DNA of 64,000 nucleotides. It comes from Lewinellaceae bacterium SD302. GTDB taxonomy: Bacteria; Bacteroidota; Bacteroidia; Chitinophagales; Saprospiraceae. The position numbers and the translations under genes are program-made. The notes beneath the pieces are model-generated. The model had not been told where the DNA came from. It worked only from the letters and a program-made list of their open reading frames with translations, and ran no database searches. The stretch covers positions 1 to 64,000 of the forward strand of contig PDLQ01000004.1 in assembly GCA_002591745.1 (NCBI GenBank), read 5' to 3'. Of the stretch, positions 3,926 through 63,743 are shown in pieces (the first letter of the stretch is position 1; each line of letters begins with the position of its first letter).

Positions 3926-3968
3926 TGCTACTTTGTTAGTCAAAAAGAATATTGGCTTCAAAGTAGCA
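3926..3968. repeat. divergent pair of the CAAAGTAGCA repeat
   Basis: TGCTACTTTGTTAGTCA starts at 3926, and TTGGCTTCAAAGTAGCA ends at 3968. The two copies point away from each other with 23 bases between the 10-mer cores. Both match the extended consensus TTGRCT(N1-2)CAAAGTAGCA. Confidence 0.9.
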
Positions 3969-4005
3969 GTGTTCTAAACGGAACTGAACGCTTTGTGAAG
4001 AATCC

Positions 4006-4091
4006 AGGGTCGAGGACCTCTGGTCGGAGGTAGTCGTTAGAGGTCTCAACGTGATACGCGGGCCAGAGGTCTTCGATTCCGAGCTTCACTT
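4006..4091. repeat. palindromic GGGTCGAGGACCTC repeat
   Basis: An imperfect inverted repeat: GGGTCGAGGACCTCTGGTC on the left is answered by GGCCAGAGGTCTTCGA on the right. The same words occur at 9672-9760, 47702-47862 and 55293-55375, always in spacers next to a CAAAGTAGCA copy. Confidence 0.75.
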
Positions 4092-4125
4092 CTGATGCTG
4101 CCAGAGCGGAAATGTCAAATATTGA

Positions 4126-6111
4126 ATGTTGAATCAGGATTGTTCAATTCTACGCTACTTGCTACTGCTGAGCTTTTTACTGAGCCTTGGCACGGCCCCT
4201 TCCGCTCAGGTTCTCGACCCTGCGGACGCCGGCGTATTGGATCCCGATGATCCTGACTTCGACCCCGACCAAGATCGCCGCCGCCAGCCCCAGGAACAGC
4301 GTCAAGTAGAGTTGGATACTTTCGGGGTTTTCGCCTTCCAGGTCAGTAATCCTAACGAGGAAACAGCTTTCCGGGATTCATTGCTAGACGACTTTCAGGC
4401 TTACGACGAAAGCCGCAAGGTCCCCTTCGATTACGGGACTACCGGTATTGTAGGTGGAGCGGCCTATCCGTTGCTGTACCGCCCCCGCGAAAGGCTGGGA
4501 CTGGACCTGGGCCTTCATCAGTTCGATCTTTACCAGCGCACCGGAAGGACAATGAGTTTTTACCGCCAGCAACGTCCCTACACCAACCTTAAATTCGTAG
4601 AAGGCAGCGAGCAGCGTGACATCATCGTAGGCGCCCAGTTTAGTCGCAACTTTGCCGACGGAGTCAACTTCGTGATGGATTATCACCGGATCAGTCAGCG
4701 GGGGCAGTCAGATCAGTACCCGAACCAGAACCTGCGGAATACCCACGTTAACACGGGTTTTTGGATAGATCACAAAAAGGGGAAATACGACGCTTTCCTG
4801 AGCTTTGCTGCTAACACTTACGAGCAAAATCAGAACGGTGGCCTGTCGGCCTTGCCTAATGTGGGGGGCGATTTCGATACCCCGCTTTCCGCCGAAGTTT
4901 ACCTGGAGGACGGTTTTCTCCGCCAGGCCCATCGCCAGTGGATGATCACCCAGTATCTGCAATTCGGAGGGCGCACGGATTCACTGGGCCGCACCGGCAG
5001 GGCCTACACTCTATCCCACGAGTTTGAGTTGAACAACTTCTACAACCGCCTCACGGTGCCTTTCAACGAAAACGATACGCTGTTTCAGGAGCAGCGCTTT
5101 CCTAATCTGAGTACCGACATCCGCGGCCAACGCAGCGTTTTCGACAACCGAACCATCCAGAACGCCGTCCGTCTCAGTACTTTCCGGCGGGGCAAGAGTG
5201 GCGATCGGGCTACCGTACAAAAAGATGTTTTGGAGTTGGGGCTGATCCACCAAATTCACCGCCTGCGCCAGGAGCCGGGTGATTCCACGATCAATAACCT
5301 GATGGCCACTGCCCGCGTCGGCTTTCGACCAAGCGACCGTTTCCGGGTAGTAGCCGACGGTCGGCTTAACCTGGCCGATCAGCTCGGTGATTTCCAGGTC
5401 AAAGCCGCCGGCCAACTGGACCTGGAACGTTTTGGTAAACTGGAACTGGATTTCTTCACTCAGCTCTCGGAGCCGACGGTGATCGATCAAGTGTATAACC
5501 TCACCGAACTGCCGCTCTACCGGAATGACTTCGATAAAGTACTGGAAACCCGGCTCGCCGGAGCCATTACGCTACCGGTCGTAAACATTCGTACGGGGCT
5601 GGCTTACAACCTGATCACTAATTACATTTACCGGGATACTTCAGGCTTACCCCAGCAGATTGGCGCGGTACAGAATATTCTACAGCTCACGGCAGAGAAG
5701 AATATCAAGATCGGTGTGCTTAACATCAACAACCGTATGAGTTTTCAATTGGCCGACCGCGACGAAATTCGCCTACCCAAGTTTATGGGCGAGCACAGCA
5801 TTTTCTACGGTGGCAAATGGTTCGGCGTACTCAACGTACAGTTTGGCGTGGATCTGCGCTACTTCGATGGTTTCAGACCCTATTACTACAATCCGGTTGT
5901 GCAGCAATTCCAACTTCAGGACGATCAGCAGACGGATTTTTTCCTCCAGGCTGATGCTTTCTTCAGTATGCGGGTTACTCGTTTCCGCTTCTTTTACAAA
6001 TGGGAGCAGGTCAACCAACTCTGGAGCGATGATCTGCTTTACCTGGTGGCGGATAACCCGTTTCCCGACCTGGCCGGGCGGCTGGGCATCAGCTGGCGGT
6101 TAATTGATTAG
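4126..6111 (+). CDS. putative outer-membrane porin (Porin_10-like)
   Basis: A 661-residue secreted outer-membrane protein. The signal peptide ends near APSAQ at about residue 27. A low-complexity acidic stretch rich in DPDD and Q/R follows, then a long beta-strand-rich region with alternating aromatic and polar residues. It closes with NPFPDLAGRLGISWRLID, a typical barrel end. Size and layout match the Bacteroidota putative porin family (Porin_10). Substrate unknown. It is convergent with the following lipoprotein gene, the two stop codons overlapping in TTAG at 6108-6111. Confidence 0.8.
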   Translation: MLNQDCSILRYLLLLSFLLSLGTAPSAQVLDPADAGVLDPDDPDFDPDQDRRRQPQEQRQVELDTFGVFAFQVSNPNEETAFRDSLLDDFQAYDESRKVPFDYGTTGIVGGAAYPLLYRPRERLGLDLGLHQFDLYQRTGRTMSFYRQQRPYTNLKFVEGSEQRDIIVGAQFSRNFADGVNFVMDYHRISQRGQSDQYPNQNLRNTHVNTGFWIDHKKGKYDAFLSFAANTYEQNQNGGLSALPNVGGDFDTPLSAEVYLEDGFLRQAHRQWMITQYLQFGGRTDSLGRTGRAYTLSHEFELNNFYNRLTVPFNENDTLFQEQRFPNLSTDIRGQRSVFDNRTIQNAVRLSTFRRGKSGDRATVQKDVLELGLIHQIHRLRQEPGDSTINNLMATARVGFRPSDRFRVVADGRLNLADQLGDFQVKAAGQLDLERFGKLELDFFTQLSEPTVIDQVYNLTELPLYRNDFDKVLETRLAGAITLPVVNIRTGLAYNLITNYIYRDTSGLPQQIGAVQNILQLTAEKNIKIGVLNINNRMSFQLADRDEIRLPKFMGEHSIFYGGKWFGVLNVQFGVDLRYFDGFRPYYYNPVVQQFQLQDDQQTDFFLQADAFFSMRVTRFRFFYKWEQVNQLWSDDLLYLVADNPFPDLAGRLGISWRLID

Positions 6112-7070
6112 TTCTGCAAGCCTAATTTTTCTCTCAGTACCCGATCTTCGTTTCCATGCTGCCCCCAGTAAGGGCTTTTGATGTGGTGGGTACGTGTTGC
6201 AGTAGTCGTCAAACCGCTTCCGTCCGCTTCCTTCCAGGCCAGGATGGCGTGGGGGAAATCTTTTTGAAAGGTGATCTCCAGACTTCGGTCGATACTTTGG
6301 TATTCGATGCGGTAGCGTTGCAGCGGCTGATCGCCGAAAATCGGGTCGCTGTGATCGGATAAGGTAGCAGTAGCCGTTTCGGCGCGGTGTGGCAAGTGTT
6401 TGAAGCGGAGGAACATGGCGCCGGGAATTATTGACATTTCGCCAGTCGGAAGTGCTTGCGGATTTAGTCGGACGGTAGTCCAGATACCGTCTTCGAGCTG
6501 AGTGCCCGGCAACTCGAAGGTTTGGTCGCCTTCGGCCATGAAATAGGATCGAAGCATCCCGTCGTAGCGACCATTGCGATAGTTGAGCTGATCGTAGGTA
6601 TGACCACACCATTCCTGGGAGCTGGTGGCGGTCTTCAAAGTAGCAACGTTGTAGTTGACCGGACTGAAGACCGAAGTCATCATGGAGTATGGGTAGATTC
6701 CGGTGATGAATTTGCGGGTGGCATTGAGCTTCAGGATGGATTGCACTTTGTCACGGGAACCACCTTCGAACTTCACCTGCTTGTCGGTCAGAAAATCTTC
6801 GGTCACGAAGATCATGACAGCATCCCCCGAGTGTAGCTCGCCGTAGCGGGATTGAGAAAGTTCGTAGCGATTGATCTCCGCCTCACCGGCATACCAGTAA
6901 TCATTAAAGCCCTTGGGGAGGGCAGGGGACTCCACGCCCTCAAACGGGTCAACCTGGCTAACGGAAACCGTAGCCTGTTCCGCATTCTGCCGGCTGACGG
7001 ATTCGGAACAACCACTGGCAAATATTAGACAGGAAACGAAGAGAACGGATACGAGCAGTTTAAGCGGCAT
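6108..7070 (-). CDS. conserved Bacteroidota lipoprotein, often misnamed septum inhibitor Maf
   Basis: A 320-residue lipoprotein. The start at 7070 gives a compact signal peptide with lipobox FASGC; the longer frame from 7100 only adds ten residues. Motifs NDYWYAGEAEINRYELSQSR, VFVTEDFL-like and SSQEWCGHTYDQLN are characteristic of a Bacteroidota lipoprotein family that databases often label septum formation inhibitor Maf (from memory). Nothing here resembles the real Maf nucleotide pyrophosphatase fold. It lies downstream of the TonB receptor gene on the same strand, with a strong hairpin between them. One CAAAGTAGCA copy lies in the coding region at 6636. Confidence 0.75.
   Translation of the reverse strand: MPLKLLVSVLFVSCLIFASGCSESVSRQNAEQATVSVSQVDPFEGVESPALPKGFNDYWYAGEAEINRYELSQSRYGELHSGDAVMIFVTEDFLTDKQVKFEGGSRDKVQSILKLNATRKFITGIYPYSMMTSVFSPVNYNVATLKTATSSQEWCGHTYDQLNYRNGRYDGMLRSYFMAEGDQTFELPGTQLEDGIWTTVRLNPQALPTGEMSIIPGAMFLRFKHLPHRAETATATLSDHSDPIFGDQPLQRYRIEYQSIDRSLEITFQKDFPHAILAWKEADGSGLTTTATRTHHIKSPYWGQHGNEDRVLREKLGLQN
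6636..6645 (-). repeat. CAAAGTAGCA repeat inside lipoprotein gene
   Basis: The sense strand of the gene reads GCTACTTTGAAGAC, encoding ATLKT. Exact 10-mer within coding sequence. Confidence 0.85.
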
Positions 7071-7138
7071 AGTAGAATGAATTGGTGATTTTTTAACCAA
7101 TATCCGAGCCGATAGTTTTAGGGGAGAGATCCGGCCAG

Positions 7139-7186
7139 CGACCTCCCGGTCGCTCTAGAATACATGTCAGAGCGACCGGGAGGTCG
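7139..7186. terminator. strong hairpin after TonB receptor gene
   Basis: A perfect 18-bp inverted repeat (CGACCTCCCGGTCGCTCT, 12-base loop, complementary arm) starts 10 bases past the receptor stop codon. No T run follows, so it could be a transcript 3' stabiliser or a member of the palindromic repeat family rather than a classical terminator. Confidence 0.6.
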
Positions 7187-7195
7187 TTAGCCATA

Positions 7196-9565: not shown

Positions 9566-9589
9566 TTGCGGGGTGTGTTTTTTGGCTTC

Positions 9590-9760
9590 AAAGTAGCAGA
9601 GTTTCGGGGAAACGCCGCTTCAATTTCACCGGGGGGTGAACCTTGACGAAATTGAAGCGGTATCAAAAAGCATCAGTAGAGACCCAGGGTCGATCCCGAT
9701 ACGTATCGGGACGGTCCGAGGTACTCGTTAGAGCGGCCATCGCGAGACTCTATCAGTATT
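9590..9760. repeat. one-ended palindromic spacer element
   Basis: It begins with a CAAAGTAGCA copy (9590-9599, in TTTTTGGCTTCAAAGTAGCA). An inverted repeat CCGCTTCAATTTC (9615-9627) / GAAATTGAAGCGG (9648-9660) follows, then the GGGTCGATCCCGATACGTATCGGGAC palindrome with GGTCCGAGGTACTCGTTAGAG. No opposing 10-mer was found before 10003, so the right end is missing or never existed. Confidence 0.7.
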
Positions 9761-10002: not shown

Positions 10003-11040
10003 ATGGACCGTATCGACCCTGTATCTAAGGACCGCTTGTTGGAATTTTTATTTCAAATCGTATTGCACGGGCTGGTCTTGATCTTCTTTGCCGTAAGTCG
10101 CAGCCACCCTGAGATCAGTGCTGCGGAGTGGGCCTATTTTGCGCTCTACGCATTGGGTTGTCTGGCCATCAGCTACTTTCTTTTACCCAGATATTTATAC
10201 CGCAGACGTTATTTGCTTTTTGGCATGGGGCTGATGTTGATCGTCGGTATTTTCATTTTGGTTGAAGAGTTAATTCTGGAACCGATTTACTACCCTAAAC
10301 GGGCCGGGCGTTTTCCCGGAATTTTTATGAGTCTGTTAGAAATCTTACCCGTAGTGACTGCCTTGGTAGCCACCAAATTTGCCTGGGATGCTCATAAAGC
10401 CCAGGGCAGGGTGATGGAACTGGAATCCGCTATCGTAGCCAGCGAGTTACAATTGTTGAGGTCGCAGATCGATCCTCACTTTCTGTTCAATAACCTGAAT
10501 AATCTGTACGCCTACGCCATTGAAGGGTCCCCAAAAACTCCTCAGATCATTCTGGAACTTTCCTCGGTACTGCGCTACGTACTTTACGATTGCCGGGAAA
10601 AATTCGTTCCGCTCAATCAGGAGTTATTGCAACTGGAAAACTACCTGCACCTGAATGAATTACAGATTGAGGAAAGGGGAGTAGTTGAATACCACAACGA
10701 AGCTGGAAACACCAATTTCGTGATTGCTCCGCTGATCCTCAGTGTATTTGTGGAGAATGCATTCAAACACGGCCAGTCGAACCAATCATCGGCCATCAGA
10801 ATACACGTACATTGCTACTTTGAAGCCAAAAACCGACTCATCTTTGAATGTAAGAATAACTTTGTTCCAAAATCAGCCTCCGGCAAATTGGATGAATCAA
10901 CCAGTGGAATCGGTTTACCCAACGTGCGTAAACGCTTAGAGTTGCTTTATCCAAACCGCCACGAACTGACACTCGGGGTAGTAGGAACAGAGTTTCACGT
11001 CCGTTTGGCCCTGGACCTAAAAACTAATGAAGTGGGATGA
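10003..11040 (+). CDS. LytS-type sensor histidine kinase
   Basis: A 345-residue inner-membrane sensor kinase. Four hydrophobic helices fill about residues 10-125. A short coiled linker leads to the His_kinase domain with SQIDPHFLFNNLNNLY, putting the phosphorylated histidine at residue 159. The ATPase part has VFVENAFKHG (N box) and GIGLPNVRKRLELLYP (G box). It overlaps the response regulator gene by ATGA, so the two are translationally coupled. No extracellular sensor domain is present, so the signal is probably sensed in the membrane (inference). An exact TGCTACTTTG repeat lies at 10813-10822, coding for CYFEA. Confidence 0.92.
   Translation: MDRIDPVSKDRLLEFLFQIVLHGLVLIFFAVSRSHPEISAAEWAYFALYALGCLAISYFLLPRYLYRRRYLLFGMGLMLIVGIFILVEELILEPIYYPKRAGRFPGIFMSLLEILPVVTALVATKFAWDAHKAQGRVMELESAIVASELQLLRSQIDPHFLFNNLNNLYAYAIEGSPKTPQIILELSSVLRYVLYDCREKFVPLNQELLQLENYLHLNELQIEERGVVEYHNEAGNTNFVIAPLILSVFVENAFKHGQSNQSSAIRIHVHCYFEAKNRLIFECKNNFVPKSASGKLDESTSGIGLPNVRKRLELLYPNRHELTLGVVGTEFHVRLALDLKTNEVG
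10813..10822 (+). repeat. CAAAGTAGCA repeat inside the sensor kinase gene
   Basis: The sense strand reads ATTGCTACTTTGAAGCCAAA, identical over 20 bases to the spacer copy at 17779-17798. It falls within the ATPase domain. Confidence 0.9.
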
Positions 11041-11791: not shown

Positions 11792-14700
11792 CTAGCGAAG
11801 AATCGTAATGTCTCCCCGAATAATATCACCCTCACCGAGGTCAAGGCGTAAAATGTAGTAGTAGGTGCCTTCCGGCAACTCGTTACCACTCTGGTTGCGG
11901 CCGTCCCAGTCGTTGTTGTAAGGAGCAGCTTCGTAGAGAATATCTCCCCAGCGATTGAAAATGATCAGGCTGTTATCCGGGAAGTCCTCGGCCTGGAAAT
12001 CCAGAAGATCGAAGATGAGGAATTCGTTCAGTCCGTCACCGTTCGGAGTGATGGTATTGTAGACCGGTGGGCGTTGGCCGTCGGCATCGATCCGGAAGCT
12101 GATCGCGGCGGTATCGCAGACACCACAGCTTTCGCTACAGATTTCGTAATTGACCGTGAACTCTCCACTCACGCCCTGGCCGGCATCGAAGGTCAATTCT
12201 CCGTTGAGGAGCGAGATGACCTCACCGAAGGGGAAGCTGTCGAGGATTGCTACGGTTACCGGCCCATTCTGTTGGTCGTTTTCCAGTAAGTTCAGGGTGC
12301 CGACACCGTCGTTACCAAGGATCACAAACTCATCGTCGTTAGCCACGGGCGCCAGCGCGCGGGAAATCGTGATGGTATCGGAGCTATAGTCCTCACAGCC
12401 GTTGGCACTCAGGGTGTAGGCCAGGGTAACGGGGGCATCGAGGCGAATGATGGTAGCCAGCGTATCCTCGAAGGTAATTACGGCTCCACCGTCATTCAGG
12501 ATCTCCCAGCTGCCAAAGGTGCCGGCGGGCAGGTTACCCGCTACGGTGGTAGAGTCATCACAGACCGAGAAGTCGAATGGCAGCATGGCCGGCTCCTGAC
12601 CAATGAGGGTAATGACGATGGTGTCCCGATCCTCACAAAGATTCTGGAGGTTAGTTACCAGCAGTTCGTAGGTGCCGATGCCGGAAACAACGGCGTTCGG
12701 CGTATCCTGACCAGTCACGATGGTGCCGCCTTGAAGCGACGTCCAGGTGTAGGAGAAAATTTCCTGGGCCGGGGCATCCGCCATGTTTTCCAGTAGCGGC
12801 ATTTCGCCACATTCGATCTCGAAATCTTCGCCGAGGTCGGCAACCGGGGTGTCGTTGGCTGCTTCCACGACGATGGTGTCGCTGTTGGTACACTCGGCGC
12901 CAGTACTCAGGGTGAGTACGTAGCTGCCCGGCCCGTCTACGGAAACGATCAGGCTGCCGTTAGCCGGGGTGATGGTGTTGCCGTCCAGACTCTCCCAGCT
13001 GATGTCAATTTCATCTACGAGTTCAGTGCTGGCGGAGGCGTCGATGGTGACCTCACCGGAACTACAGCTGAAGGAATCCACCGGCTCGAATACGATGTTG
13101 TCGATGCCTTCGTCATCCAGGAACAGATCGTAGCCAACCTGGGTAATACAGCTGCTCGCTTGATCGACCACTACGGCGATGTAAGAACCTTCGTCCTCAA
13201 CGTCGATGGTCAGAACATTGGTGGCGATCAAGGAAACGGGCGGATCACCAACCGGAGGACCGAACCACTGAATAAACAGACCACTGGTGTCGGCAATACT
13301 AATGGAGAGTGTCGTCGAAGTGTTCTCACAGTCGATCGGTGCGTAGGGCAGCGTATCTACCTGTGGGAAGGAACGGCCGTCCTGAATCAATACGGTATCG
13401 TAGGACTCACACATGGTTTCGGTATTGATCACCGTGAGTTCGTAGAGTCCGGGAGTGCTGACTACCAAAGTATCAGTGCCCTGGAATTGAGCGCCGGGTA
13501 CTTCTCCGCCCTGAACATTGTCCCACATATAAGTGAAGTTGGGACCGCTGGAAGATTGCGTGGCGCTGATAGTGGCCGTCGGCTCTACACAAGTGAGCGT
13601 CTGAATACCTACGTTAACGGCGGCGAAAGGCGGAACGATCTCACTGCCGTCCACCAGGAACATGAAGTCTGCGGAACAGCCGTTGACCTGATTTTCAACC
13701 GTCAGGACGTATTGGCCCGGTTCGAAGACCGTTACCGTAGTGGCATCGGCAGTTGGAGCGCCCGGGCCGCTGATGGACAGGGTTACCTGATCATCGCCAC
13801 CATCGGCCATTGGGTCGATGACGAGGCTGCCGTTGGCACAGGTCAGTCCGAACACGGTATCGGGTAACATGACCGTCGGGAAGCCGATGGCCGGTAAAAC
13901 TTCGATGGTATCGAAAGCGCGACACTGAGTATTCAGATCCAGTACTTCGATAATGTATTCACCGGGTTGATCTACGATGAGGGTGTTATTTGTTTCTCCG
14001 TCGATGGTGTCACCCAGAGTATACCATAGGTAGGTGGCGTTGTCGCTTTGACTACCGCTACCATCGATGGTGAAGGTTTGACCACACTCGATGTTCATGT
14101 CCTCTCCGGCGTCGGCGATCGGCAGTACCGGCTCAACGACCTGTATAGTGGCCGTGCTGCTACAACCCGAGTCGTCGACAACGAGGGTATAAGTGCCCTG
14201 GCCGATGACCAATGGGTTGGCGTCATCTTGCTGTCCTACTACAAATGCACCGTCCATGGTCGTCCAGCTGTAAGTCTGACTGCCGCTGACGTTATCGAAA
14301 TTCGGCATCAGCTGGATGGTGTCGCTGTTACAATTTAGCGGTTGATCCAGCGTATCATTAATGATGGGGTTGCCCTGGCTCTCGATGATCTCGATATCTA
14401 AGGTCGTAACACACTGGTTGGTAGTATCGGTGACCGTAAGCATGATAAAACCAAGGTTGCTGGTGGTATAAGTTGGAGTGACGCTCAGGGGCGGTCCACC
14501 ACCGGCGGGTTCGTATAGGTAGGTGAAGTCCTCTTGCAGTGGTCCGGCATCGATAAAGGCAGGACTACCGTCACAACCCAGCGTAAAGGTGGTTGGAATA
14601 TCAATATTCGGTGGCGCCGTATCATCGCTGACCACAATGATGTCGCTGGTAGAACACTGGCTCTGCGGGAAGGTCACCGTAAGGCGGTAGCGGCCGGCCA

Positions 14701-17780: not shown

Positions 17781-17790
17781 TGCTACTTTG
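17781..17790. repeat. CAAAGTAGCA repeat between porP/sprF-like and the T9SS substrate gene
   Basis: The copy ATTGCTACTTTGAAGCCAAA lies in the 132-base spacer, 16 bases past the porP/sprF-like stop codon. Confidence 0.85.
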
Positions 17791-19036: not shown

Positions 19037-19483
19037 TTATCTCCGACACCGATTTCGTTTCATATCCCAGCAGCTATCCTTCTTGTTCCAGTAAATGCTG
19101 TAGCAACGGCCACGATTGAGGTAGTATTCCTTACGAACGACCCGGTCTTCACTGTAGGTAGTGGTGACTTCAAAGTAGCAGCCGGCCTGGTTCTGAAGTG
19201 AGAAGATACTGGAATAGAGCGCTCCGAGACCATAACTCCCCCAGGCCTGACGATCGAAACTCAGTTTGAAACTGATATCGGAAGTCGGGAATTGATTGGT
19301 GACCAGGATACCTTGTTGTAACAGCAGATCACCGGGATCCAGCGCGGTGACGTTCGGGTCGGTCAGCATACTGTCCGTTGCCGGGAAGTAGGTGAGACGC
19401 ACGGGTTGGCTCGCCAACCCACTACTCCCTACGATGAGTGCAAGGAGAAGTGTGAAGATGTATGTTTTGAGTCTTGTAGACAT
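19037..19483 (-). CDS. small secreted protein, third gene of the caspase operon
   Basis: A 148-residue protein with a signal peptide (KTYIFTLLLALIVGSSGLASQ) and a compact mature domain of about 120 residues. It ends in a basic, cysteine-containing tail (RGRCYSIYWNKKDSCWDMKRNRC). I do not recognise the family. It lies 38 bases past the small membrane protein gene in the same direction as the caspase gene, so the three are probably one transcript. Its size, cysteines and secretion would fit a periplasmic partner or substrate of the caspase (inference). A CAAAGTAGCA copy lies in frame at 19171 (CYFEVT). Confidence 0.65.
   Translation of the reverse strand: MSTRLKTYIFTLLLALIVGSSGLASQPVRLTYFPATDSMLTDPNVTALDPGDLLLQQGILVTNQFPTSDISFKLSFDRQAWGSYGLGALYSSIFSLQNQAGCYFEVTTTYSEDRVVRKEYYLNRGRCYSIYWNKKDSCWDMKRNRCRR
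19171..19180 (-). repeat. CAAAGTAGCA repeat inside the small secreted protein gene
   Basis: The sense strand reads TGCTACTTTGAAGTC, coding for CYFEV. Exact 10-mer. Confidence 0.85.
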
Positions 19484-20009: not shown

Positions 20010-21119
20010 TTATCGGCAACCTACGAGGCTGCGCTGGTAGTTTTGTAAATGGGTGAGCCGCAAATTCGCTTTTTCTTGCTTTTGGCGGGCTACCAGCAGT
20101 GATTTTTGTTGGCGGTAATCACCAATGGACCGGCTCAGACCATTAACCTGGTTGCGGTGGTAGCGGCGCAATTCCTTCATTTCGCGTTTTTGTTCCCGCC
20201 GTACTGTACGGGCGATCCGCCGACATTCGCTGGGGCTCAGCGGTTCTTCCTCCACTTCCACGGTAGCTGAAATGAAGAGCTCGAAACGGCAAAAAGGTTG
20301 CTGGGTCAACTGCCGTTCCTGGCTGCGGTAATTGGTACGGCGCACGATGTTGTTGCAGACTTCGTTCCAGTCGCGAAAGTTGCCACCGGCGAATATTTCG
20401 TGGAAGGTGTAAAGCAACTCGGAAAAGAAAATCCCTCCGTCCCGGGAAATGAAGGTGAAGTTCTCGCGATCAGAGCTAAACAGGTCCACGACTTTGGTGT
20501 AGCCCGGCGAATCGATGAAAAGGTGGTGCCATGAATTGACCAGGGCGCGGGAACTGCGAGTTGTGGCGGGAGGGTACAGGGAAGCTACGGGTGGCGGATT
20601 GCCATCGGTGGGTGCCGGCGGCGGGGCGCTCAGGTCATATTGAGTTACGTTGCAGGCCACCACGATATTGATCAGCAGGCTCGGGTTCTTTTGCAGAAGT
20701 GCCAGCCGCAGGTCTTCCATTTCCAGCCCATCGCCGTAACTGTTGAAGTACAGTTTCGGGTAGACGCTCGTGCTGCCCGGCATGCGGTAACCGTGGCCGG
20801 CGTAGACCAGCAGGATGATGTCACGTTCCTGGTAGGACAGCTCGTATTCCATCACTTCATTCAGTTTGTCGCGGGTGAAGTTGGAGCCGGATATCTGGTA
20901 GTAATGAACGGTGGAGATGCCCAGTTGCTGACGAATTTGCTCCACTTTGCGGTCGATGCCGTAATCGATACTGCGGGCTCCCTCGGAGACGATGTAGTTC
21001 TCACTGTTGTCATCCAGCATCTTGATAACGTGGATGTGACGGGTTTCTGCTAACAAAGTAGCAGTGCTAATTGCAAAGACGGCTAAGGCCGTCAGGAGGG
21101 GTTTAATTAAACTCTGCAT
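20010..21119 (-). CDS. secreted caspase-family (C14) protease
   Basis: A 369-residue protein with a signal peptide (start at 21119, cleavage near TLLA-ETR) and a caspase-like p20 domain at about residues 27-160. The catalytic histidine is H109 in VYAGHGYR, and the cysteine is C156 in VVACNVTQ. After a proline-rich insert comes a p10-like part, then a basic coiled-coil C-terminus (about 285-365) rich in RREQKREMKELRRY. Export of a caspase homologue is unusual; the domain should act in the periplasm or at the surface. It heads a three-gene operon with a small membrane protein 14 bases downstream and a small secreted protein. The longer start at 21170 is possible but places a hydrophilic stretch before the signal peptide. 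A CAAAGTAGCA copy falls in the signal-peptide codons. Confidence 0.8.
   Translation of the reverse strand: MQSLIKPLLTALAVFAISTATLLAETRHIHVIKMLDDNSENYIVSEGARSIDYGIDRKVEQIRQQLGISTVHYYQISGSNFTRDKLNEVMEYELSYQERDIILLVYAGHGYRMPGSTSVYPKLYFNSYGDGLEMEDLRLALLQKNPSLLINIVVACNVTQYDLSAPPPAPTDGNPPPVASLYPPATTRSSRALVNSWHHLFIDSPGYTKVVDLFSSDRENFTFISRDGGIFFSELLYTFHEIFAGGNFRDWNEVCNNIVRRTNYRSQERQLTQQPFCRFELFISATVEVEEEPLSPSECRRIARTVRREQKREMKELRRYHRNQVNGLSRSIGDYRQQKSLLVARQKQEKANLRLTHLQNYQRSLVGCR
21054..21063 (-). repeat. CAAAGTAGCA repeat in caspase signal-peptide codons
   Basis: The sense strand reads ACTGCTACTTTGTTAGCA, coding for TATLLA at the signal cleavage region. Exact 10-mer. Confidence 0.85.
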
Positions 21120-22327: not shown

Positions 22328-23971
22328 ATGACTTTACGCCTTATAATGGTCGTCCGGCCGATCTGTTCATTCCGCTGGCCGGTTCCCCTTGCTACTTTGT
22401 TAGCCACCCTCCTGACCATATCTCTGAGCGCCCAGGAAGCTCCGCCTTTATACGATATCGAGAACATCACCGAAGTGAATGTCATGATGATCGACTCGGC
22501 CTGGGAAGCCAAACTGATTGCCTATAAGGATGCTAACGTTAAAAAACGGGTGCTGGCCAGCCTGGAAGTGAATGGCATGAGTTTTGACAGCGTGGGCGTG
22601 CGGTTCAAAGGGAACAGTTCTTACTTCCGTAGCCGACAGGATGGCACCACCAAGCTTCCGCTGAACATCAAACTTAGCTATACCGACGAGGACCAGGTTT
22701 ACCCGGGCGGTTACCGTACCCTGAAGTTGAGTAACGTTTTCCGTGACCCCAGTTTCGTACGCGAAGCCCTGGCCTATCACGTAGCCCGCACCTACGTGCC
22801 CGCCCCAAAAGCCAATTTTGCCAAAGTAACTGTAAACGGAAAATACTGGGGACTGTACACCCTCACACAGAGTATCGACGAGCAGTTTCAAAAAGAACAT
22901 TATGGCAGTCGTAAAGGGGTACTGTTCAAGTGTGACCCTGACCGTAAAGTGGACAAAGGTACCGCCTGCGCCGAAGGTGAACTGGCCAGCCTGGAGTACC
23001 TCGGTCCGGACCAGGCCTGCTACCAGGATCGCTATGAGATCAAGCGCAGCAAAGCCGGTTACGACGACATCATCGAATTGATCCGGCTGCTCAATACCGA
23101 CCTGGACGCCTTCGCCCAGATTTTCGATATCGATGGTGCCCTGTGGATGCACGCTTTCAACAACGTGATGGTGAATCTGGACAGCTATACCGGCCTGTTC
23201 TGCCACAATTATTACCTCTACCAGGACAAGAAAAAAATCTGGCATCCGCTGCTCTGGGATATGAATATGGCCCTCGGTGGCTTCCGTTTTACCGGCATCA
23301 AGGGCAATCCGAAACTTAGCAACGAGCAAATGGGGGAACTGTCCATTTTTATGCACTTGCGTGACCGTAGTACCAATCGGCCGCTCATCACCGAACTGCT
23401 CTCCATCCCCCTCTATCGCAAGATGTACGTGGCACATTGCAAGACGATCTTCGAGGACTTTATCGCCCAGGACCAGTACCGTGAAGTAGCCGAAAGCTAC
23501 CGCGAAATGATTCGCCCGCTGGTGAAGGAAGATCCCGAAAAACTCTATTCTTTCGAGCAATTTGAAAAGAACTATACGGAAACCGTCACCATTGAAGGCA
23601 GCTTTGACGTTGTTGGCGTTACCGAGCTCATGGACGGTCGTAAAAAATACTTCTCCGATCACGTCTTAATGACGACCGAGGCGCCCGAAATTTTGGCTAA
23701 CAAAGTAGCTATGCAAGGGGCGGACAGTAAAGTAACCGCCACCCTGGCCGAGGCAGACGAAGACAGTAAAATGCACGTCTGGTTCCGCACAGTAGAAAAC
23801 GGCCCCTGGAAGCTGCGCCAAATGGAAACCGACCCGGATACGGAGAATGGCTTCTTTGTTTTACTGCCCGGCGAAATTCATTCCTACTACCTGGTCGCTG
23901 AGAACAAAGTGGTCGCCTCAGTATTGCCCGAGCGGAGTGCGAAGGAGTGGTTCGAGGTGGAGGGGAGTTAG
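22328..23971 (+). CDS. secreted CotH kinase-family protein
   Basis: A 547-residue exported protein. A signal peptide ends near LSAQE. The CotH domain follows: VGVRFKGNSS, TLKLSNVFRDPSFVREALAYHVAR, VNGKYWGLYTLTQSIDEQFQKEHY, GVLFKCDPD, then WHPLLWDMNMALGGF carrying the metal-binding D in the usual spot. CotH proteins are atypical protein kinases in spore coats and are also common as surface proteins in Bacteroidota. The C-terminal 100 residues form a separate strand-rich domain. The spacers on both sides carry AGTCNNN heptad repeats, and the signal-peptide codons contain an exact CAAAGTAGCA copy. Confidence 0.85.
   Translation: MTLRLIMVVRPICSFRWPVPLATLLATLLTISLSAQEAPPLYDIENITEVNVMMIDSAWEAKLIAYKDANVKKRVLASLEVNGMSFDSVGVRFKGNSSYFRSRQDGTTKLPLNIKLSYTDEDQVYPGGYRTLKLSNVFRDPSFVREALAYHVARTYVPAPKANFAKVTVNGKYWGLYTLTQSIDEQFQKEHYGSRKGVLFKCDPDRKVDKGTACAEGELASLEYLGPDQACYQDRYEIKRSKAGYDDIIELIRLLNTDLDAFAQIFDIDGALWMHAFNNVMVNLDSYTGLFCHNYYLYQDKKKIWHPLLWDMNMALGGFRFTGIKGNPKLSNEQMGELSIFMHLRDRSTNRPLITELLSIPLYRKMYVAHCKTIFEDFIAQDQYREVAESYREMIRPLVKEDPEKLYSFEQFEKNYTETVTIEGSFDVVGVTELMDGRKKYFSDHVLMTTEAPEILANKVAMQGADSKVTATLAEADEDSKMHVWFRTVENGPWKLRQMETDPDTENGFFVLLPGEIHSYYLVAENKVVASVLPERSAKEWFEVEGS
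22390..22399 (+). repeat. CAAAGTAGCA repeat in CotH signal-peptide codons
   Basis: The sense strand reads CTTGCTACTTTGTTAGCCA, coding for LATLLA. It is the same peptide and orientation as the copy in the caspase signal peptide. Confidence 0.85.
23701..23710 (+). repeat. CAAAGTAGCT, one-mismatch copy inside cotH-like gene
   Basis: The plus strand reads TTTTGGCTAACAAAGTAGCT, coding for LANKVA. The flank TTGGCTAA matches the extended consensus. Confidence 0.7.
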
Positions 23972-30738: not shown

Positions 30739-30748
30739 TGCTACTTTG
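30739..30748. repeat. CAAAGTAGCA repeat downstream of the DUF2911 gene
   Basis: ATTGCTACTTTGTTAGTCAA lies 32 bases past the minus-strand DUF2911 stop codon and directly beside MITE copy 2. Confidence 0.85.
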
Positions 30749-36992: not shown

Positions 36993-37002
36993 TGCTACTT
37001 TG
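36993..37002. repeat. CAAAGTAGCA repeat before the PLP-dependent enzyme gene
   Basis: ATTGCTACTTTGTTAGCCATAATAAA shares its downstream flank with the copy at 55417. It lies 26 bases before the TTG start. Confidence 0.85.
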
Positions 37003-41520: not shown

Positions 41521-41692
41521 GGCTTCAAAGTAGCAGTGTTTGATGCCTGACTCGTCGGCCGAAGCGGACGTTTACGGCCTGATTCGTCCGCCGAGTATGT
41601 TATTTCTTTTTTTTGAATTTGCTCGGCCGATGAATCAGGCCCTGCGGTCCGCTTCGGCGGGCGAGCTCAAAGCATTGCTACTTTGCCAGTCC
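41521..41692. repeat. 172-bp inverted-repeat spacer element bounded by CAAAGTAGCA copies
   Basis: Left end TTTTTTGGGCTTCAAAGTAGCA and right end TGCTACTTTGCCAGTCCAAAA face inwards as terminal inverted repeats. Inside, two arms of about 40 bases (around 41549-41590 and 41630-41668) sharing GCCGAAGCGGAC and GGCCTGATTC pair into a long hairpin separated by a T-rich centre. No coding capacity. The remaining 313-base spacer shows no gene. Confidence 0.85.
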
Positions 41693-47581: not shown

Positions 47582-47904
47582 CAAAGTAGCAGAGATTATG
47601 GAAAACGTTGCCTCAGCTTAATGCTTTCGGACGAAGCGAAAAACCCCGGTGTTCCGACCTGATTGAGGATTAAGCAGTGATTCGAAAGTTTCGGCAAGAA
47701 TACTGGGTCGAGGACCTCCGGTCCGAGGTACTCGTTGAATCAGTAATCCAAAAGCTCGATTAAGAAAAATGGGGTCGATCCCGATTGTATCGGGACGGTC
47801 CGAGTGTCATATTAGTCGCTCTAGCGAGTACCTCGGACCAGAGGTCCTCGACCCATTCTTCGTTAGGATCTTTGAAGTTGTGATCTGAAAATATTGCTAC
47901 TTTG
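47582..47904. repeat. 323-bp palindromic spacer element bounded by CAAAGTAGCA copies
   Basis: The ends are GGCTGGCAAAGTAGCA (10-mer 47582-47591) and TGCTACTTTGAAGCC (10-mer 47895-47904), facing inwards. The interior holds GGGTCGAGGACCTCCGGTCCGAGGTACTCG (about 47703) and its complement CGAGTACCTCGGACCAGAGGTCCTCGACCC (about 47827), which can pair into a large hairpin, plus the GGGTCGATCCCGATTGTATCGGGAC palindrome nested within. The 464-base spacer holds no gene. Confidence 0.85.
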
Positions 47905-55176: not shown

Positions 55177-55426
55177 CAAAGTAGCCAAGTTTTGAAAGCC
55201 CCTAACGTCGTCGAGTGTATTGACAAAGTCGCTTCGTCCGAAAGTCGTTCGTTTTCAATAATTGGCCCGAAACTGAAAGCATGTTACTATTTAGGGTCGA
55301 GGACCTCTGGTCCGAGGTACTCGTAAAAGCGGCAAGTTCCGTTGCTAAAGCGACACTCTGACCAGGTTTTCTCGATCCATTCTTTCCTCAAATCATTGTC
55401 GGTTCCCTATTTACTCTGCTACTTTG
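55177..55426. repeat. 250-bp palindromic spacer element bounded by CAAAGTAGCA-type copies
   Basis: The left end GACTTCAAAGTAGCC (one mismatch) and the right end TGCTACTTTGTTAGCC face inwards. Inside lies GGGTCGAGGACCTCTGGTCCGAGGTACTCG with a degraded complement CTGACCAGGTTTTCTCGATCC. TCGCTTCGTCCGAAAG is the complement of a word in the 47582-47904 element. The 390-base spacer holds no gene besides the smc promoter. Confidence 0.8.
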
Positions 55427-55558: not shown

Positions 55559-58500
55559 ATGCGTTTAAAATCACTGGAAATCAAGGGATTCAAGAGTTTT
55601 GCGAACCAGACGGTCGTGAACTTTTCGGAAGACGTAATCGGGATCGTGGGTCCGAACGGCTCGGGCAAATCCAACATCGTGGATGCTATTCGGTGGGTAT
55701 TGGGTGAGCAAAAGGGCCGGGAATTGCGGCTGGATAAGATGAGTAGCGTCATTTTCAACGGCACCAAGAAACGGAAAGCCGGCAACGTAGCCTCGGTTTC
55801 CCTGACTTTTGAGAATACGAAAAACCTGCTGCCGACGGACTATAATATGGTCACCATCACCCGGATGCTGTACCGGAGTGGGGAAAGTGAATACCGGTTA
55901 AATGGAGTGACTTGCCGCCTCAAAGACATTAAGGGACTACTACTGGATACGGGAATTGGCTCGAACTCTTACGCCATTATTGCCCTGGGCATGGTAGACG
56001 ATATCCTGGCGGATAAGGACAACAGTCGCCGCCGTATGTTCGAACAGGCTGCCGGGGTAAGCAAGTACAAGGCCCGCAAGCGGGAGACCCTGAATAAACT
56101 GAAGAATACGGAGGGCGATCTGGACCGTATCGAAGATTTGTTGCACGAGATCAACAACAACCTCGTAAGCCTGGAAAAACAGGCTAAGCGGGCGCGGCGT
56201 TACCGGGAGATCAAGGCTCAGTACAAAGAATTGAGTGTACAGCTGGCGGCGATGAAAGTTACCCAGTTGCGTACCCGTTACCGGGAACTGAACAAGGAGA
56301 TCACCGCCGCCGAGGGGGGCTACCGAGCCACCGACGCCAGCATCAAGCAGCTGGAGAGCAAACTGGAAGAAGCCCGTAAGGAGAACCTGGACCAGGAAAA
56401 AATACTGGGCGAACGCCAGCGGCAGCTCAACGAAATGGTGAATAAGCTACGGCAACAGGAAAACCGTAAGCAGATGCTGGCCCAGCGGCTGGAATTCATC
56501 ACTCGTAACCGGGCGGAGCTGGAACAGCAAATCAAAAACTCCGGAGCTTTGCTGGAGGAAGTGGCTAAGGAGTCCACGAGTCTGACGGCAAGAATTAGCC
56601 AGGAACAGACGGCCCAGACTGAACTTAAAACGGCCCTGGAGGCAGCCGAAGCGGCGCTACAGGAAATCCGGGGTGGCCACGCGGGGATCAAATCACAGTT
56701 GGACGCCGGAATACAGGAACAGCAACAGCTGGAACGCAGCATTTTCGAACTGGAAAAACGGCGGGCGATCAACAGCAACCAGATCGATAACTTTAATTTC
56801 CAGAGAGAGCGCAATAGCGGCGAGATGGAAGATCGCCGCGGCGAACTGGATGCCTTGAGCGGACGGCTGACCGAACTGGAAAAGAAAGAAAAAGAACAAC
56901 TGCTGGCCATCGAAAAGCTGGAAACGGCCGAAGAAGAAAGACGACTGGCCCTGGAGGCCGGGGAGGAAGCACTGGACAAGCTCAAAAATGAACTCAACCG
57001 CATCAACCGTAATCTGGATGCCAAACGGAACGAGTTCAAGTTGACCAAAAGTATGGTGGAAAACCTGGAGGGCTTCCCCGAGAGTATCCGGTTTCTGAGC
57101 CAGAACGAAGATTGGTCGAAAAAGGCCCAACTACTTTCCGATCTGCTGTTGGTGGACGAAGGCTATCGCGTAGCCATTGAAAACTACCTGGAAAGCTACC
57201 TGAACTACTATGTGGTGAGCGATATGGACGCCGCCCGCGAAGCTATACAGATGTTGAGCCGTGGACAGAAAGGGAAGGCCAATTTCTTCCTGCTCGACGC
57301 CATTGACCAGCCGCCAGCTTCTCCGGCCTTACTACCCGCCGGAACCCGGCCGGCGGCCGATGTCGTACAGGTAGACCCTGAATACCGCGACCTGGTGGGT
57401 TATCTGCTGGGTAACGTACTGGTTACGGAGAGCGATGAATTTCCCGCTTCAGACACTGGTGGACAGACCATTTTGGCAAAAAGCGGTCGTTTCATTCGCC
57501 GTCCAAACAGTATCAGTGGCGGTTCCGTGGGGCTATTCGAAGGCAAGAAAATTGGCCGGAAGAAGAACCTGGAGCAGCTGGAAAAAGCCATTGAAAAGGG
57601 AGAAGCTGATGCCAGTAAACTGAATAAAAAACTCTACGAAGCCCGGACTAAAGTAGAACAGTTGAAGGGCCGCCGGATCACTCAGGATATTCAACAGCAG
57701 CAACGTGAGCTGAACAAGAGCCAGCAGCAACGTGCTGCCCTGCGCGCACGGGTGGAAAATTTTGAGAAATATTTTACCGAAACCAACGCCAAGAATGACC
57801 AGCTGGCCAAACAGGTCACGGAGCTGGAAAAGACCAACCTGCAATCCGAAAAGGACCTGACTACTCAGCAGCAAAAGATCGGAACGCTGCGGGAGACCCT
57901 GGCGGGAACGGATGGCAATTACCGCAAGTTAAGCGAGCAACTCAGCCAGGCCAACGCCGATTATAATGCCCAGAATATCAACTTTATCCGCCAGCAAAAT
58001 CTAGTGGAAAGCTTGCAAAAGGAGTTGGACTTCAAAGTAGCAAGGCAGGTAGAGATCGAAGCACAGACTGGAAAAAATCGTGAACAGTTACAGCAACTGG
58101 CCAAGGAACTGGAATCGATCCACGACGAGCAGATCAGTCTGCAAAAGGAACTGGAAGGAAAATACCAGGAAAAGCAGGAATTTGAGAAATCCCTGAATGA
58201 TACCGAGCAAGGCTATTTCACCGCCCGCTCCACCATCAATGCCCTGGAAGATGAGTTGCGCAAGACCAATCGTAAACGACAGGACACCCAGGTACTGGTC
58301 AATCAGCTGAAGGAGAAATTCACGGACGTCAAGTTCAAGATATCTTCGATGAGTGAACGACTACGGATCGAGTTCGATGTCGACATCAAGAATATTGTTG
58401 ATGAGGCAGAAACGGATGTGGAAGCGAACCAAAACAACCATCCGGAGGAAGGTGATGCTGAACCGCAGACGCAACAGTCCGGAGAACCGGAAATCAAGAA

Positions 58501-61374: not shown

Positions 61375-61407
61375 TCCACGGAAGTGATCAGCGTTCAATA
61401 GACAAAT

Positions 61408-62480: not shown

Positions 62481-62485
62481 TTCCC

Positions 62486-62553
62486 GGAATACGCCGTTCT
62501 CCGAGCGGCCATAATCAGTAATACTAGTATCCGCTCGGAGTGCGGCGTATTCC
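62486..62553. terminator. long hairpin after the GMC operon
   Basis: GGAATACGCCG (62486-62496) with CGGCGTATTCC (62543-62553), and inner CTCCGAGCGG (62499-62508) with CCGCTCGGAG (62531-62540), form a 23-base arm with a small bulge. It is near the operon stop and between convergent transcripts. No strong T run. Confidence 0.65.
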
Positions 62554-62661
62554 ATTTGCTTAGTGACCAAGCCACCATAGTAAGAGAACAGGTAGAATAA
62601 TTCTCATTGGTGGTATTTTGCCACCAAGGTAATAAATGGTTACAATGAATCTAATTTATTG

Positions 62662-63372
62662 CTAGCGGTACTCCGGATTCGCGAAGCCCCAGCGACTACC
62701 ACTGTCCCATGCTTCTCTGGAGTTACCGTAAGCGGGAAAACCGCCTTCCGCTTTCAGCAGACGGGCCAGGTGCAGTAGGTTATAGGTCAGGAAAGTCGTA
62801 TTGCGGTTGGTGAAATCATTTTCTTTGGCATTGGCCTCTTCATCCAGGTAACTCGGGCCGGGGCCCACTTCGCCAATCCAGCCGGCGTCTGCTTGGGGCG
62901 GTATACTGAACCCTAAATGCTGCAAAGCATAAAGCATCCCCATGGCACAGTGTTTCACTCCGTCTTCATTGCCGGTGATGATACAACCGCCCACTTTGCC
63001 ATAGTAAATGTATTGCCCCTTATCATTGGTCTTACCACTCATGGCGTAAAGTCGCTCGATCAGTTTGGAAGCTTCACTGGAGCGTTCGCCTAACCAAATT
63101 GGAGTGCCGATCATCAGAATGTCGGCGTTCATGATCTTGTCGTAGATGCCCGGCCACTCATCTTTTGCGTAGCCATGCTCCGTCATGTCTGGCTGTACAC
63201 CCGGAGGAATTTCGTGATCTACGAATCGGACGTGCTGAACGGTCACTCCTTCCGAAACCATGATGTTGGCCGCTACGTCCATCAGCCCACGGGTATGGCT
63301 CTGGCGCGGTGACTTTTTGAGGGTACAGTTCACGAAAACGGCGGAGAGGTTGGAAAAGTCTGGCTTGGACAA
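62662..63372 (-). CDS. flavodoxin-fold NAD(P)H-dependent oxidoreductase
   Basis: A 236-residue protein of the NADPH-dependent FMN reductase / flavodoxin-like group. AVFVNCTLKKSPRQSHTRGLMD is the phosphate-binding loop, ADILMIGTPIWLGERSSEASKLIERL the flavin-contact loop, and YGKVGGCIITGNEDGVKHCAMGMLYALQHLGFSIPPQA the continuation typical for the group. The substrate is unknown. It is on the minus strand, 41 bases downstream of a small membrane-protein frame, and convergent with the GMC operon. Confidence 0.85.
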   Translation of the reverse strand: MSKPDFSNLSAVFVNCTLKKSPRQSHTRGLMDVAANIMVSEGVTVQHVRFVDHEIPPGVQPDMTEHGYAKDEWPGIYDKIMNADILMIGTPIWLGERSSEASKLIERLYAMSGKTNDKGQYIYYGKVGGCIITGNEDGVKHCAMGMLYALQHLGFSIPPQADAGWIGEVGPGPSYLDEEANAKENDFTNRNTTFLTYNLLHLARLLKAEGGFPAYGNSREAWDSGSRWGFANPEYR

Positions 63373-63413
63373 GTTGAATGATTAGGTCGGATTGCCAAAG
63401 CAAACCGAAGTGA

Positions 63414-63635
63414 TTAAATGCTGTCAGGGTAGAAATGCCGCTTGGTCATTAACAGTGGTAGCCCGATCAGGGCTAAGGCTACCAAGTTAATGATAAGTAC
63501 ATTATGAATAGCCCCGTAAAAGATCGAAATGCCGCTATCTACCAAACACCAACTGATCATTCCCACCCACATGGCTTGATAAGCCCAAGGTTCCCGCCTT
63601 TCGAAAGCATTCTCTGAAATGAAGATCATAAGCAA
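63414..63635 (-). CDS. small membrane protein, 5' end uncertain
   Basis: A hydrophobic protein of about 73 residues if begun at TTG 63635, or 71 from ATG 63629. Helices WYQAMWVGMISW-like, ISIFYGAIHNVLIINLVALALIGLPLLM are clear. The same frame stays open and membrane-like upstream to 63674 (LFGIIGGTIIGFHLL), where a TAG occurs, and the only upstream ATG (63699) is in another frame that stops at once. So either a non-standard start is used or the 5' end was damaged near the CAAAGTAGCA pair at 63706-63743. I do not recognise the family. Confidence 0.5.
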   Translation of the reverse strand: MLMIFISENAFERREPWAYQAMWVGMISWCLVDSGISIFYGAIHNVLIINLVALALIGLPLLMTKRHFYPDSI

Positions 63636-63705
63636 GTGGAAGCCGATGATGGTGCCACCGATAATTCCGAAAAGCTATTTAATTTATTGGACTGGTCATG
63701 GCTGA

Positions 63706-63743
63706 CAAAGTAGCAAAGGTTCCCGGTAAACACTGCTACTTTG
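63706..63743. repeat. close inverted pair of CAAAGTAGCA
   Basis: GGCTGACAAAGTAGCA and TGCTACTTTGCCAGTC face inwards with only 18 bases between the 10-mer cores, giving a hairpin. This is the tightest pair in the window and lies between two minus-strand genes, where it could act as a terminator. Confidence 0.9.

Follow-up and report, generated by a model that had tools for sequence, protein, structure and literature searches.

We find that the genome of Lewinellaceae bacterium SD302 carries a short word, CAAAGTAGCA, in great excess on both strands, a feature of the uptake sequences of Neisseriaceae (DUS) and Pasteurellaceae (USS), and that each strand holds its own near-regular array of copies on the stretches measured. 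We read the motif as a directional, uptake-sequence-like recognition signal, with a probability of about one half. Throughout the 5.48 Mb genome, CAAAGTAGCA occurs 1,344 times (669 forward, 675 reverse), compared with 16 occurrences (7 and 9) of our control, the same word read backwards. An earlier note on the window, by which we mean the whole 64-kb stretch analysed, had claimed a density far above chance and near-balanced strands, and both claims hold genome-wide.

The core is sharp and lies in a soft flank, giving a motif of ~25 bp, TTTTGRCT-(T or RR)-CAAAGTAGCA-RTGYT, in which a T-rich stretch is followed by GRCT, a spacer, the core and RTGYT; conservation drops off ~16 bp out from the core. 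In agreement with the flank proposed earlier (TTGRCT and a spacer of one or two bases), the spacer is T in 33 of 121 copies and two purines in 61, the other 27 belonging to neither class. Among one-mismatch copies that pass the flank test, the changed base is at core position 4 or 10 in 26 of 27. The USS likewise has a sharp core in a soft, T/A-rich flank. It also shares with this motif a presence on both strands and an intergenic excess, as described for Pasteurellaceae (PMC1939737).

Within the window we count 22 exact cores, 11 on each strand, at the places listed in the earlier note except that its 9590 becomes 9589, and a further five cores with one mismatch; 2.94 copies at up to one mismatch are expected in a shuffled window. 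Flanks were scored, at a threshold of 14, with a matrix built from exact copies that included those of the window. Both mismatched copies listed previously (23701 and 55177) have the motif flank, but the total had been put at two rather than five. A third mismatched core, at 13466, also exceeds the threshold, and those at 28663 and 36037 score below it. The exact copies and the three mismatched copies above the threshold are:

3926..3935, minus strand: exact core, intergenic, inverted pair with 3959; flank score 35.5
3959..3968, plus strand: exact core, intergenic, inverted pair with 3926; flank score 35.0
6636..6645, plus strand: exact core; flank score 25.7
9589..9598, plus strand: exact core, divergent intergenic; flank score 37.1
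10813..10822, minus strand: exact core within a histidine-kinase-like ORF; flank score 35.6
13466..13475, plus strand: one-mismatch core with motif flank, large CHU_C/T9SS-signal ORF; flank score 20.7
17781..17790, minus strand: exact core, intergenic; flank score 33.0
19171..19180, plus strand: exact core; flank score 24.6
21054..21063, plus strand: exact core; flank score 30.5
22390..22399, minus strand: exact core close to the start of a CotH-kinase ORF; flank score 27.3
23701..23710, plus strand: core with changed last base and motif flank; flank score 27.7
27666..27675, plus strand: exact core within an RskA-like ORF; flank score 32.5
29509..29518, minus strand: exact core within an SDF symporter ORF; flank score 24.9
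30739..30748, minus strand: exact core, intergenic; flank score 36.5
32282..32291, plus strand: exact core within a MutM/Fpg ORF; flank score 23.1
36993..37002, minus strand: exact core, intergenic; flank score 37.9
41526..41535, plus strand: exact core, intergenic, inverted copy 41676 at 150 bp; flank score 39.7
41676..41685, minus strand: exact core, intergenic; flank score 36.6
47582..47591, plus strand: exact core, intergenic; flank score 28.7
47895..47904, minus strand: exact core overlapping an ORF end; flank score 32.5
55177..55186, plus strand: core with changed last base and motif flank; flank score 25.9
55417..55426, minus strand: exact core upstream of SMC (start 55559); flank score 34.4
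58033..58042, plus strand: exact core within the SMC gene, no gap versus 11 relatives; flank score 33.7
63706..63715, plus strand: exact core, inverted pair with 63734; flank score 30.0
63734..63743, minus strand: exact core, inverted pair with 63706; flank score 31.4

Spacing in SD302 was measured strand by strand on one 360 kb stretch of a single contig (C1). The mean step is 6.6 kb on one strand and 5.5 kb on the other, with coefficients of variation of 0.44 and 0.42 versus 0.97 for random placement. Overall, within-strand spacing lies at 5.5-9 kb. Exact copies ≤2 kb apart, summed over three species, form 4 same-strand and 68 opposite-strand pairs. Shuffling the strand labels abolishes the regularity in SD302 and in G116 (0/5,000 for both); in G200 the regularity is reduced rather than lost (P 0.015). 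No such per-strand spacing was found for the 613 other 7-mers that served as a null, in place of an 8-mer null whose three words seemed to be pieces of the motif.

For comparison we examined Pasteurellaceae-type and Neisseria-type proviral fragments, which are not complete chromosomes. The USS-type fragments show no same-strand exclusion at 60-2000 bp (59 same, 24 opposite) and the DUS-type fragments at most a weak one at 60-1000 bp (58 same, 93 opposite), whereas exclusion is strong for the motif of the SD302 genus. Strand-by-strand spacing exceeds what plain USS or DUS shows. As these controls lack strong exclusion and USS uptake by H. influenzae is reported to be independent of orientation (PMC1939737), uptake sequences are not known to be spaced in this per-strand manner, a point against the uptake reading. 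The motif otherwise resembles the DUS as described in PMC3630211 and PMC2397512, with a ~10 bp core present in many copies on either strand, inside genes and between them, with close inverted pairs and with dialects among related species. It differs from the DUS in its phylum and in its average copy spacing, ~4 kb on SD302 contig C1 compared with a scale of ~1.1 kb in Neisseria, where spacing is reported to match the size of conversion fragments (PMC2397512). From the strand-wise spacing we predict a polar process with a reach of several kb.

The main rival of the uptake reading is a directional self-mark inside the cell, a motif that in one orientation would stop or switch a helicase-nuclease, as Chi does RecBCD. 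A self-mark should work in an orientation-specific way, give strand-independent coverage and keep gaps limited, all of which match the data, and it needs no pilus-type ATPase. Chi sites likewise occur as many short copies, and Chi is orientation-dependent. However, over 250 kb of the E. coli K-12 genome the 8 bp Chi site favours one strand (51:12), and its spacing on that major strand is random (CV 0.95). The motif is balanced (39:50) on the 360 kb stretch of C1, which would represent one replichore and whose GC skew is positive in 11 of its 12 bins, and no strand bias of Chi/KOPS type was found along it. On strand balance and the E. coli control we rejected Chi or KOPS as such. Moreover, known Chi sites are far shorter than this species-specific 25 bp word, and changes of dialect or near-loss within a genus would presumably be costly if the mark guarded the chromosome. 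We consider a self-mark possible, though unlikely.

Copies are densest between genes, 51 of 121 lying on 9.7% of the bases. This fits the uptake reading and would also suit a scattered small mobile element or its ends, or a promoter or terminator element. Copies were not found to keep one orientation or position with respect to genes, as those of a promoter or terminator would: genic copies are sense in 32 cases and antisense in 38, and tandem gaps are split 18 versus 16. In divergent gaps, 11 of 14 copies (11:3) are opposite to the nearer gene; this bias, which comes only in part from inverted pairs, speaks against the uptake reading and for an element of that kind. The reverse complement contains TACTTTG, near the Bacteroidota -7 box TANNTTTG, but the letters misfit, and we rejected the promoter reading on this ground and for the lack of orientation bias in tandem gaps and genes. 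The terminator reading was rejected as well: of the 49 intergenic copies classified in the SD302 sample, just 1 lies in a convergent gap. Close USS pairs, by comparison, are described as usually lying at gene ends and acting as terminators (PMC7811141). The earlier note had likened the motif's mixture of features to that of USS and DUS; the density, use of both strands, genic and intergenic copies and close inverted pairs agree with this, but its pairs near gene ends, read as terminator pairs, are not supported. In G193, 3 of 17 copies are convergent, so avoidance of convergent gaps is not general.

A few genic copies coincide with alignment gaps, as a mobile element would predict and as counts against the uptake reading: among 17 with orthologues, 8 show no gap, 6 a gap versus some relatives and 3 a gap versus all compared. 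In SMC the copy takes the place of codons, with no gap against 11 relatives and with lysine in SD302 where 11/11 have arginine. Such replacement, and the loss of conservation so close to the core, tell against the transposable-element ends raised in the earlier note. We regard the mobile-element, promoter and terminator explanations as very improbable indeed.

Beyond the window, CAAAGTAGCA is strongly enriched in SD302 alone of 199 family genomes, with no comparable enrichment in the other 198 (largest 52 vs 15). Congeners use CGCAGGTGCA in a similar frame (three species have 1,098, 1,134 and 1,193 copies), and these different words in sister species are dialects of one motif, as known from uptake sequences. 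As for conservation at orthologous positions, suggested earlier as a check, the two dialects occupy one aligned place in comEC, which supports the uptake reading. None of the relatives compared has a counterpart of the SD302 copies inside the DprA and SMC genes, which counts against it. Upstream of SMC, the congeners G116, G193 and G006 also carry an oppositely oriented copy in their dialect. By a looser motif pattern nine species are labelled strong, eight of which (G116, G193, G200, G201 and G210-G213) group together on a single branch in the tree of ComEC (92/98, fork drawn open). G203 and G207 keep ComEC and DprA yet show no enrichment by this pattern, again counting against uptake, though 60 kb of G203 hold 7 copies of CGCGGGTGCC versus 0.42 expected. 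In some congeners the word has changed, degenerated or almost vanished, which fits a non-essential, self-spreading signal. If the motif instead bound a nucleoid, replication or repair-strand protein and had nothing to do with gene transfer, the regular spacing and between-gene positions would fit. This reading leaves the different words of sister species and the unenriched species unexplained, and there is no clear strand bias on C1; we judge it rather improbable.

We also scanned 17 relatives for dispersed words (20-80 kb each, judged by eye). Among the 14 outside the genus no clear dialect was found except TTGCGCAGCGA in G061, which occurs genome-wide 313 times versus 0 for its control, compared with 37 vs 1 in G015 and 24 vs 0 in G154, of the same genus as G061. 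As there are close same-strand copies among the matches listed, we do not count TTGCGCAGCGA as the same phenomenon. Repeats in other scanned relatives were set aside as a longer element (G098), tandem repeats (G001 and two in G193) or a one-strand repeat (G029).

Judged on ComEC and DprA alone, the genus has competence machinery: ComEC is present in 21/21 genomes and DprA in 20/21, the exception being a genome 55% complete. PF00437, the profile of pilus, T2SS and Tad-type ATPases, gives 42 matches in 20/21 genomes, each covering at most 84 of the profile's 370 positions; its curated cut-off is barely reached in 11/21 (24.9-25.5 bits vs 24.9), which counts against a pilus-free reading. Uptake sequences are regarded as established in Pasteurellaceae and Neisseriaceae, where the receptors named are pilins (PMC1939737, PMC7811141); for the USS, a minor pilin has been proposed (PMC12616744). 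Judged by PF00437, of which just partial matches were found in the 21 genus genomes, neither a type IV pilus nor the ComP-like pilin receptor (ComP/ComN type) envisaged earlier is supported. Unlike the DUS-bearing Neisseriaceae, the genus has just partial pilus-type ATPase matches, and on these profile hits pili of the sort employed by known uptake-word systems seem to be absent from it. As the PF00437 matches are only short and partial, the receptor would be of a different, unfamiliar kind, other than a retractable type IV pilus.

A signal on the donor side, such as a pac-like packaging site or an oriT-like nicking site exporting one strand or direction of the chromosome for recombination into relatives, would likewise yield per-strand arrays if polar transfer reached a few kb, and CGCAGGTGCA with its full flank is found in 33 viral-contig stretches, several with 2 copies. 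In a search limited to PF05065, however, the HK97-type capsid was found in 4/21 congeners and not in SD302, G116 or G193. An HK97-type GTA was rejected on this basis, and we consider a donor-side signal distinctly improbable.

For the uptake reading, we infer DNA uptake as the process, together with its polarity and reach. A DNA-binding receptor of the competence pathway would recognise the motif on outside DNA and so favour import of same-species DNA, and copies would persist because imported DNA bearing them recombines back into the chromosome. A bound copy may license import or integration of a few kb on one side, or of one strand. As it would act directionally, a nearby second copy in the same orientation would add nothing and decay, and one in the opposite orientation would serve separately. 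For Riemerella columbina, of another Bacteroidota family, a preference for its own DNA has been reported (PMC7965970). A bolder reading, somewhat less likely than not, is a categorically new class of genome-wide directional signal, in which polar, pilus-free import would maintain a species-specific word as independent, near-regular arrays on the two strands and so give each strand a licence for exchange within a few kb everywhere.

The dialects of sister species and the presence of ComEC and DprA go past the evidence of the earlier note. The strand-wise spacing, which the USS control does not show and the DUS control shows weakly at most, provides a quantitative clue to mechanism. If the uptake reading is true, self-recognition in DNA exchange would have arisen again in another phylum, using another receptor.

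The 10-mer CAAAGTAGCA occurs in the window in 22 exact copies, the number counted in the earlier note, with 11 per strand, and in five one-mismatch copies rather than the two reported there (expectation for at most one mismatch, 2.94). With a scoring matrix that included the window's own exact copies, 25 of these 27 places scored above threshold for the full motif. The strand balance extends to the whole source genome (5,478,864 bases, 147 contigs), which contains 1,344 copies (669 + 675) compared with 16 (7 + 9) of the word read backwards. Derived from 121 copies in 464 kb (the window and 400 kb more), the motif consists of a T-rich stretch, GRCT, a spacer, CAAAGTAGCA and RTGYT, with conservation fading past about -16 and +15. 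The spacer is T in 33 copies, two purines in 61 and neither in 27, in agreement with the flank proposed earlier (TTGRCT plus 1-2 variable bases). One-mismatch copies that passed a flank test differed at core position 4 (14 copies), position 10 (12) or elsewhere (1); reversed sequence gave 1 such copy. The window also encodes a T9SS signal domain, and its SMC is closest, among named matches, to one from Saprospiraceae; both fit Bacteroidota.

Sites are both genic and intergenic: by simple ORF calls, 70 of the 121 copies lie in genes or on their edges, and the other 51 in intergenic space that makes up 9.7% of bases. Genic copies are sense in 32 cases and antisense in 38, and 51 of the 70 lie in phase 2 (24 sense, 27 antisense). 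Copies in tandem-gene gaps show little preference (opposite 18, same 16), those in divergent gaps are mostly opposite to the nearer gene (11, same 3), and convergent gaps, 14% of intergenic bases, hold 1 of 49 classified intergenic copies (P 0.012). On a 360 kb stretch where GC skew is positive in 11 of 12 bins, the strands carry 39 and 50 copies.

We analyzed spacing separately for each strand, an arrangement illustrated by one strand of the window.

Minus strand, starts of the motif copies in the window: 3926, 10813, 17781, 22390, 29509, 30739, 36993, 41676, 47895, 55417, 63734

Exact positions were used for contig C1 of the source genome (91 sites) and for two congeners with another word (see below), G116 (99 sites, five contigs) and G200 (C1, 50 sites). 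Same-strand and opposite-strand pairs numbered 1 and 45 below 1 kb, 3 and 23 at 1-2 kb, 32 and 50 at 2-4 kb, and 113 and 113 at 4-8 kb, so that of the 72 pairs closer than 2 kb, 4 are same-strand (P 5e-16, assuming pair independence). Including degenerate copies (matrix with 160 hits in 464 kb and 6 in reversed sequence) softened this exclusion in the own sample (within 2 kb, same 9, opposite 59); with them, gaps on C1 averaged 6.6 kb on the plus strand (n=54, CV 0.44) and 5.5 kb on the minus strand (n=65, CV 0.42), compared with a random CV of 0.97-0.98 and with 0 of 5,000 simulations as regular per strand. Exact copies alone gave CVs of 0.52 and 0.53 in the own genome, 0.64 and 0.61 in G116 (87 sites, three contigs; P 0.0014, 0.0016), and 0.70 and 0.61 in G200 (P 0.040, 0.010). 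Shuffling strand labels at fixed positions abolished the regularity in the own genome and G116 (0/5,000; same 87 sites) and weakened it in G200 (P 0.015). Among 613 7-mers of similar count in own DNA, the mean CV was 1.02 and the minimum 0.77, compared with 0.54. Pooled neighbouring pairs are mostly +- below 2 kb (43, with 25 -+) and mostly -+ at 3-9 kb (44, with 28 +-; Fisher P 0.004, with bins picked post hoc and 2-3 kb, 9:9, omitted), which may indicate the side served by each copy.

Because there is one array per strand, we infer a process that reads the motif in a single orientation, with a reach of several kb. A Chi-like mark of self DNA would account for this spacing equally well, although Chi itself, in 250 kb of E. 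coli, is skewed between strands (51 and 12) and irregular (major-strand CV 0.95). Uptake words were compared in viral-contig fragments retrieved through an inverted pair, with hosts inferred from the word; after pairs below 60 bp and fragments with fewer than three remaining sites were removed and repeated pairs counted once, USS gave 59 same-strand and 24 opposite pairs (37 of 79 Pasteurellaceae-type fragments, 60-2000 bp) and DUS gave 58 and 93 (74 of 120 Neisseria-type fragments, 60-1000 bp). Therefore, neither has strong same-strand exclusion.

Counting in related genomes showed that the word itself is local and that congeners use another. CAAAGTAGCA is comparably enriched in none of 198 other family genomes (199 with the own, 112 genera, taken out of a larger group), the top count being 52 in G127 (control 15). 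A second dispersed word, CGCAGGTGCA, in the frame ttttGGGCGcGG(c/a)-core-ARGGAAGG, emerged when k-mers were counted in 100 kb from the congener G193. This word occurs 1,193 times in G193 (control 4), 1,098 in G116 (7), 1,134 in G200 (2) and 213 in G006 (9); the own genome has 11 copies (control 11). A looser pattern showed enrichment graded between species across the 21 genus genomes, and none in G203 (131/135) or G207 (131/139).

Looser pattern in the most enriched genomes tabulated (copies/control)
G000 (own genome): 1,411/120
G193: 1,271/155
G200: 1,223/178
G116: 1,184/170

A weight matrix applied to congener stretches, G201, G205, G210, G211 and G213 excepted, gave more hits (the word or degenerate CGC[AG]GG[TA]GC[ACG]) than its reversed control in most, including G203 (8 vs 4), and not in G207 (2 vs 3) or G215 (3 vs 6); it gave 1 vs 2 in 120 kb of the own genome and zero matches in two genomes of other genera. 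This ease of word change or loss among congeners is left unexplained by a Chi-like mark, which we regard as the main rival reading, at rather low probability.

Other words and repeats were also observed. A 60 kb sample of G203 contains CGCGGGTGCC 7 times (0.42 expected), possibly its own dialect. In G061, from another genus of the family, the 11-mer TTGCGCAGCGA occurs 313 times genome-wide (control 0), with 37 copies in G015 and 24 in G154; this second uptake-like word of the family has close same-strand copies. Viral contigs (e.g., IMGVR_UViG_3300012037_000001) carry the CGCAGGTGCA dialect with full flank in 33 stretches, several with two copies, and the own dialect in 18, one copy each, about chance by a rough estimate. 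A longer REP-like repeat with ATAGCGGCAC and CGCAGCGCTA blocks (six copies each) is dispersed in 40 kb of G098, and G193 has tandem arrays with AATCGAGAAT (C1 21633-22646) and GACAACCCGA units at several places.

Conservation at orthologous positions, raised in the earlier note, held at some loci and failed at others. In a 21-species codon alignment of comEC, the own gene has TTTTTTGGCTGG-CAAAGTAGCA where 10 relatives have a CGC[AG]GGTGC[ACG] form, most with a GGGCG-type flank; at this place the form is missing from G201 and from the other main branch (nine species). One genic copy is common to G193 and G116 at an aligned place, and upstream of SMC an oppositely oriented copy, each in its own dialect, is present in the own genome, G116, G193 and G006 (distances differ; orthology putative). 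For the source genome's copies within DprA and SMC, the relatives compared (19 for DprA) show no counterpart. The SMC copy replaces codons with no gap against 11 relatives, giving lysine where all 11 have arginine. Among 17 genic copies with orthologues (9 own, 8 of relatives; identity at least 35%), 8 align gap-free, 6 have a gap against some relatives and 3 against all compared. Substitution therefore fits some copies and insertion may explain others; the notion that all copies are transposon ends is not supported by the gap-free cases, and the three full-gap copies would be compatible with insertion.

Each of the 21 genus genomes encodes ComEC (PF03772) in one open frame, and DprA (PF02481) is found in 20, the exception being 55% complete. 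A ComP-like receptor, one of the binders suggested earlier for testing, was not supported: PF00437, which covers pilus, T2SS and Tad ATPases, gave 42 matches in 20 of 21 genomes, each over at most 84 of 370 profile positions; the cut-off was passed in 11 genomes (24.9-25.5 bits vs 24.9). About half of the matches lie within ORFs of some 900-1,070 aa, possibly UvrA. HK97 capsid occurs in 4 of 21 genomes, and is absent in G000, G116 and G193. In the ComEC tree, eight of nine species labeled "strong" from the looser pattern (G116, G193, G200, G201, G210-G213) group together (support 92/98) at a fork that the program drew open; the ninth, G214, lies on the other main branch, and own ComEC forms a long lone branch of unsure placement.

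According to PMC7965970, Riemerella columbina favours its own DNA, and A-rich 10-mers such as AAAAATAAAA were proposed as putative uptake sequences, function open, in three Flavobacteriaceae; published work has therefore already looked for words of this kind in Bacteroidota, with none established. Open-licence literature, most hits being judged by listing, yielded neither an established Bacteroidota uptake sequence nor this motif (for uptake sequences, see also PMC1939737, PMC7811141, PMC3630211, PMC2397512 and PMC12616744).

Judged from sequence, the motif matches uptake sequences in its dialects, strand balance, excess and placement. We do not class the motif as a DUS or USS, because it is known here from genomic data only and departs from them in spacing and apparently in pilus component. 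The best single account, with a probability of about one half, is uptake or integration via ComEC, which would be directional and would involve a receptor of a non-pilus kind.
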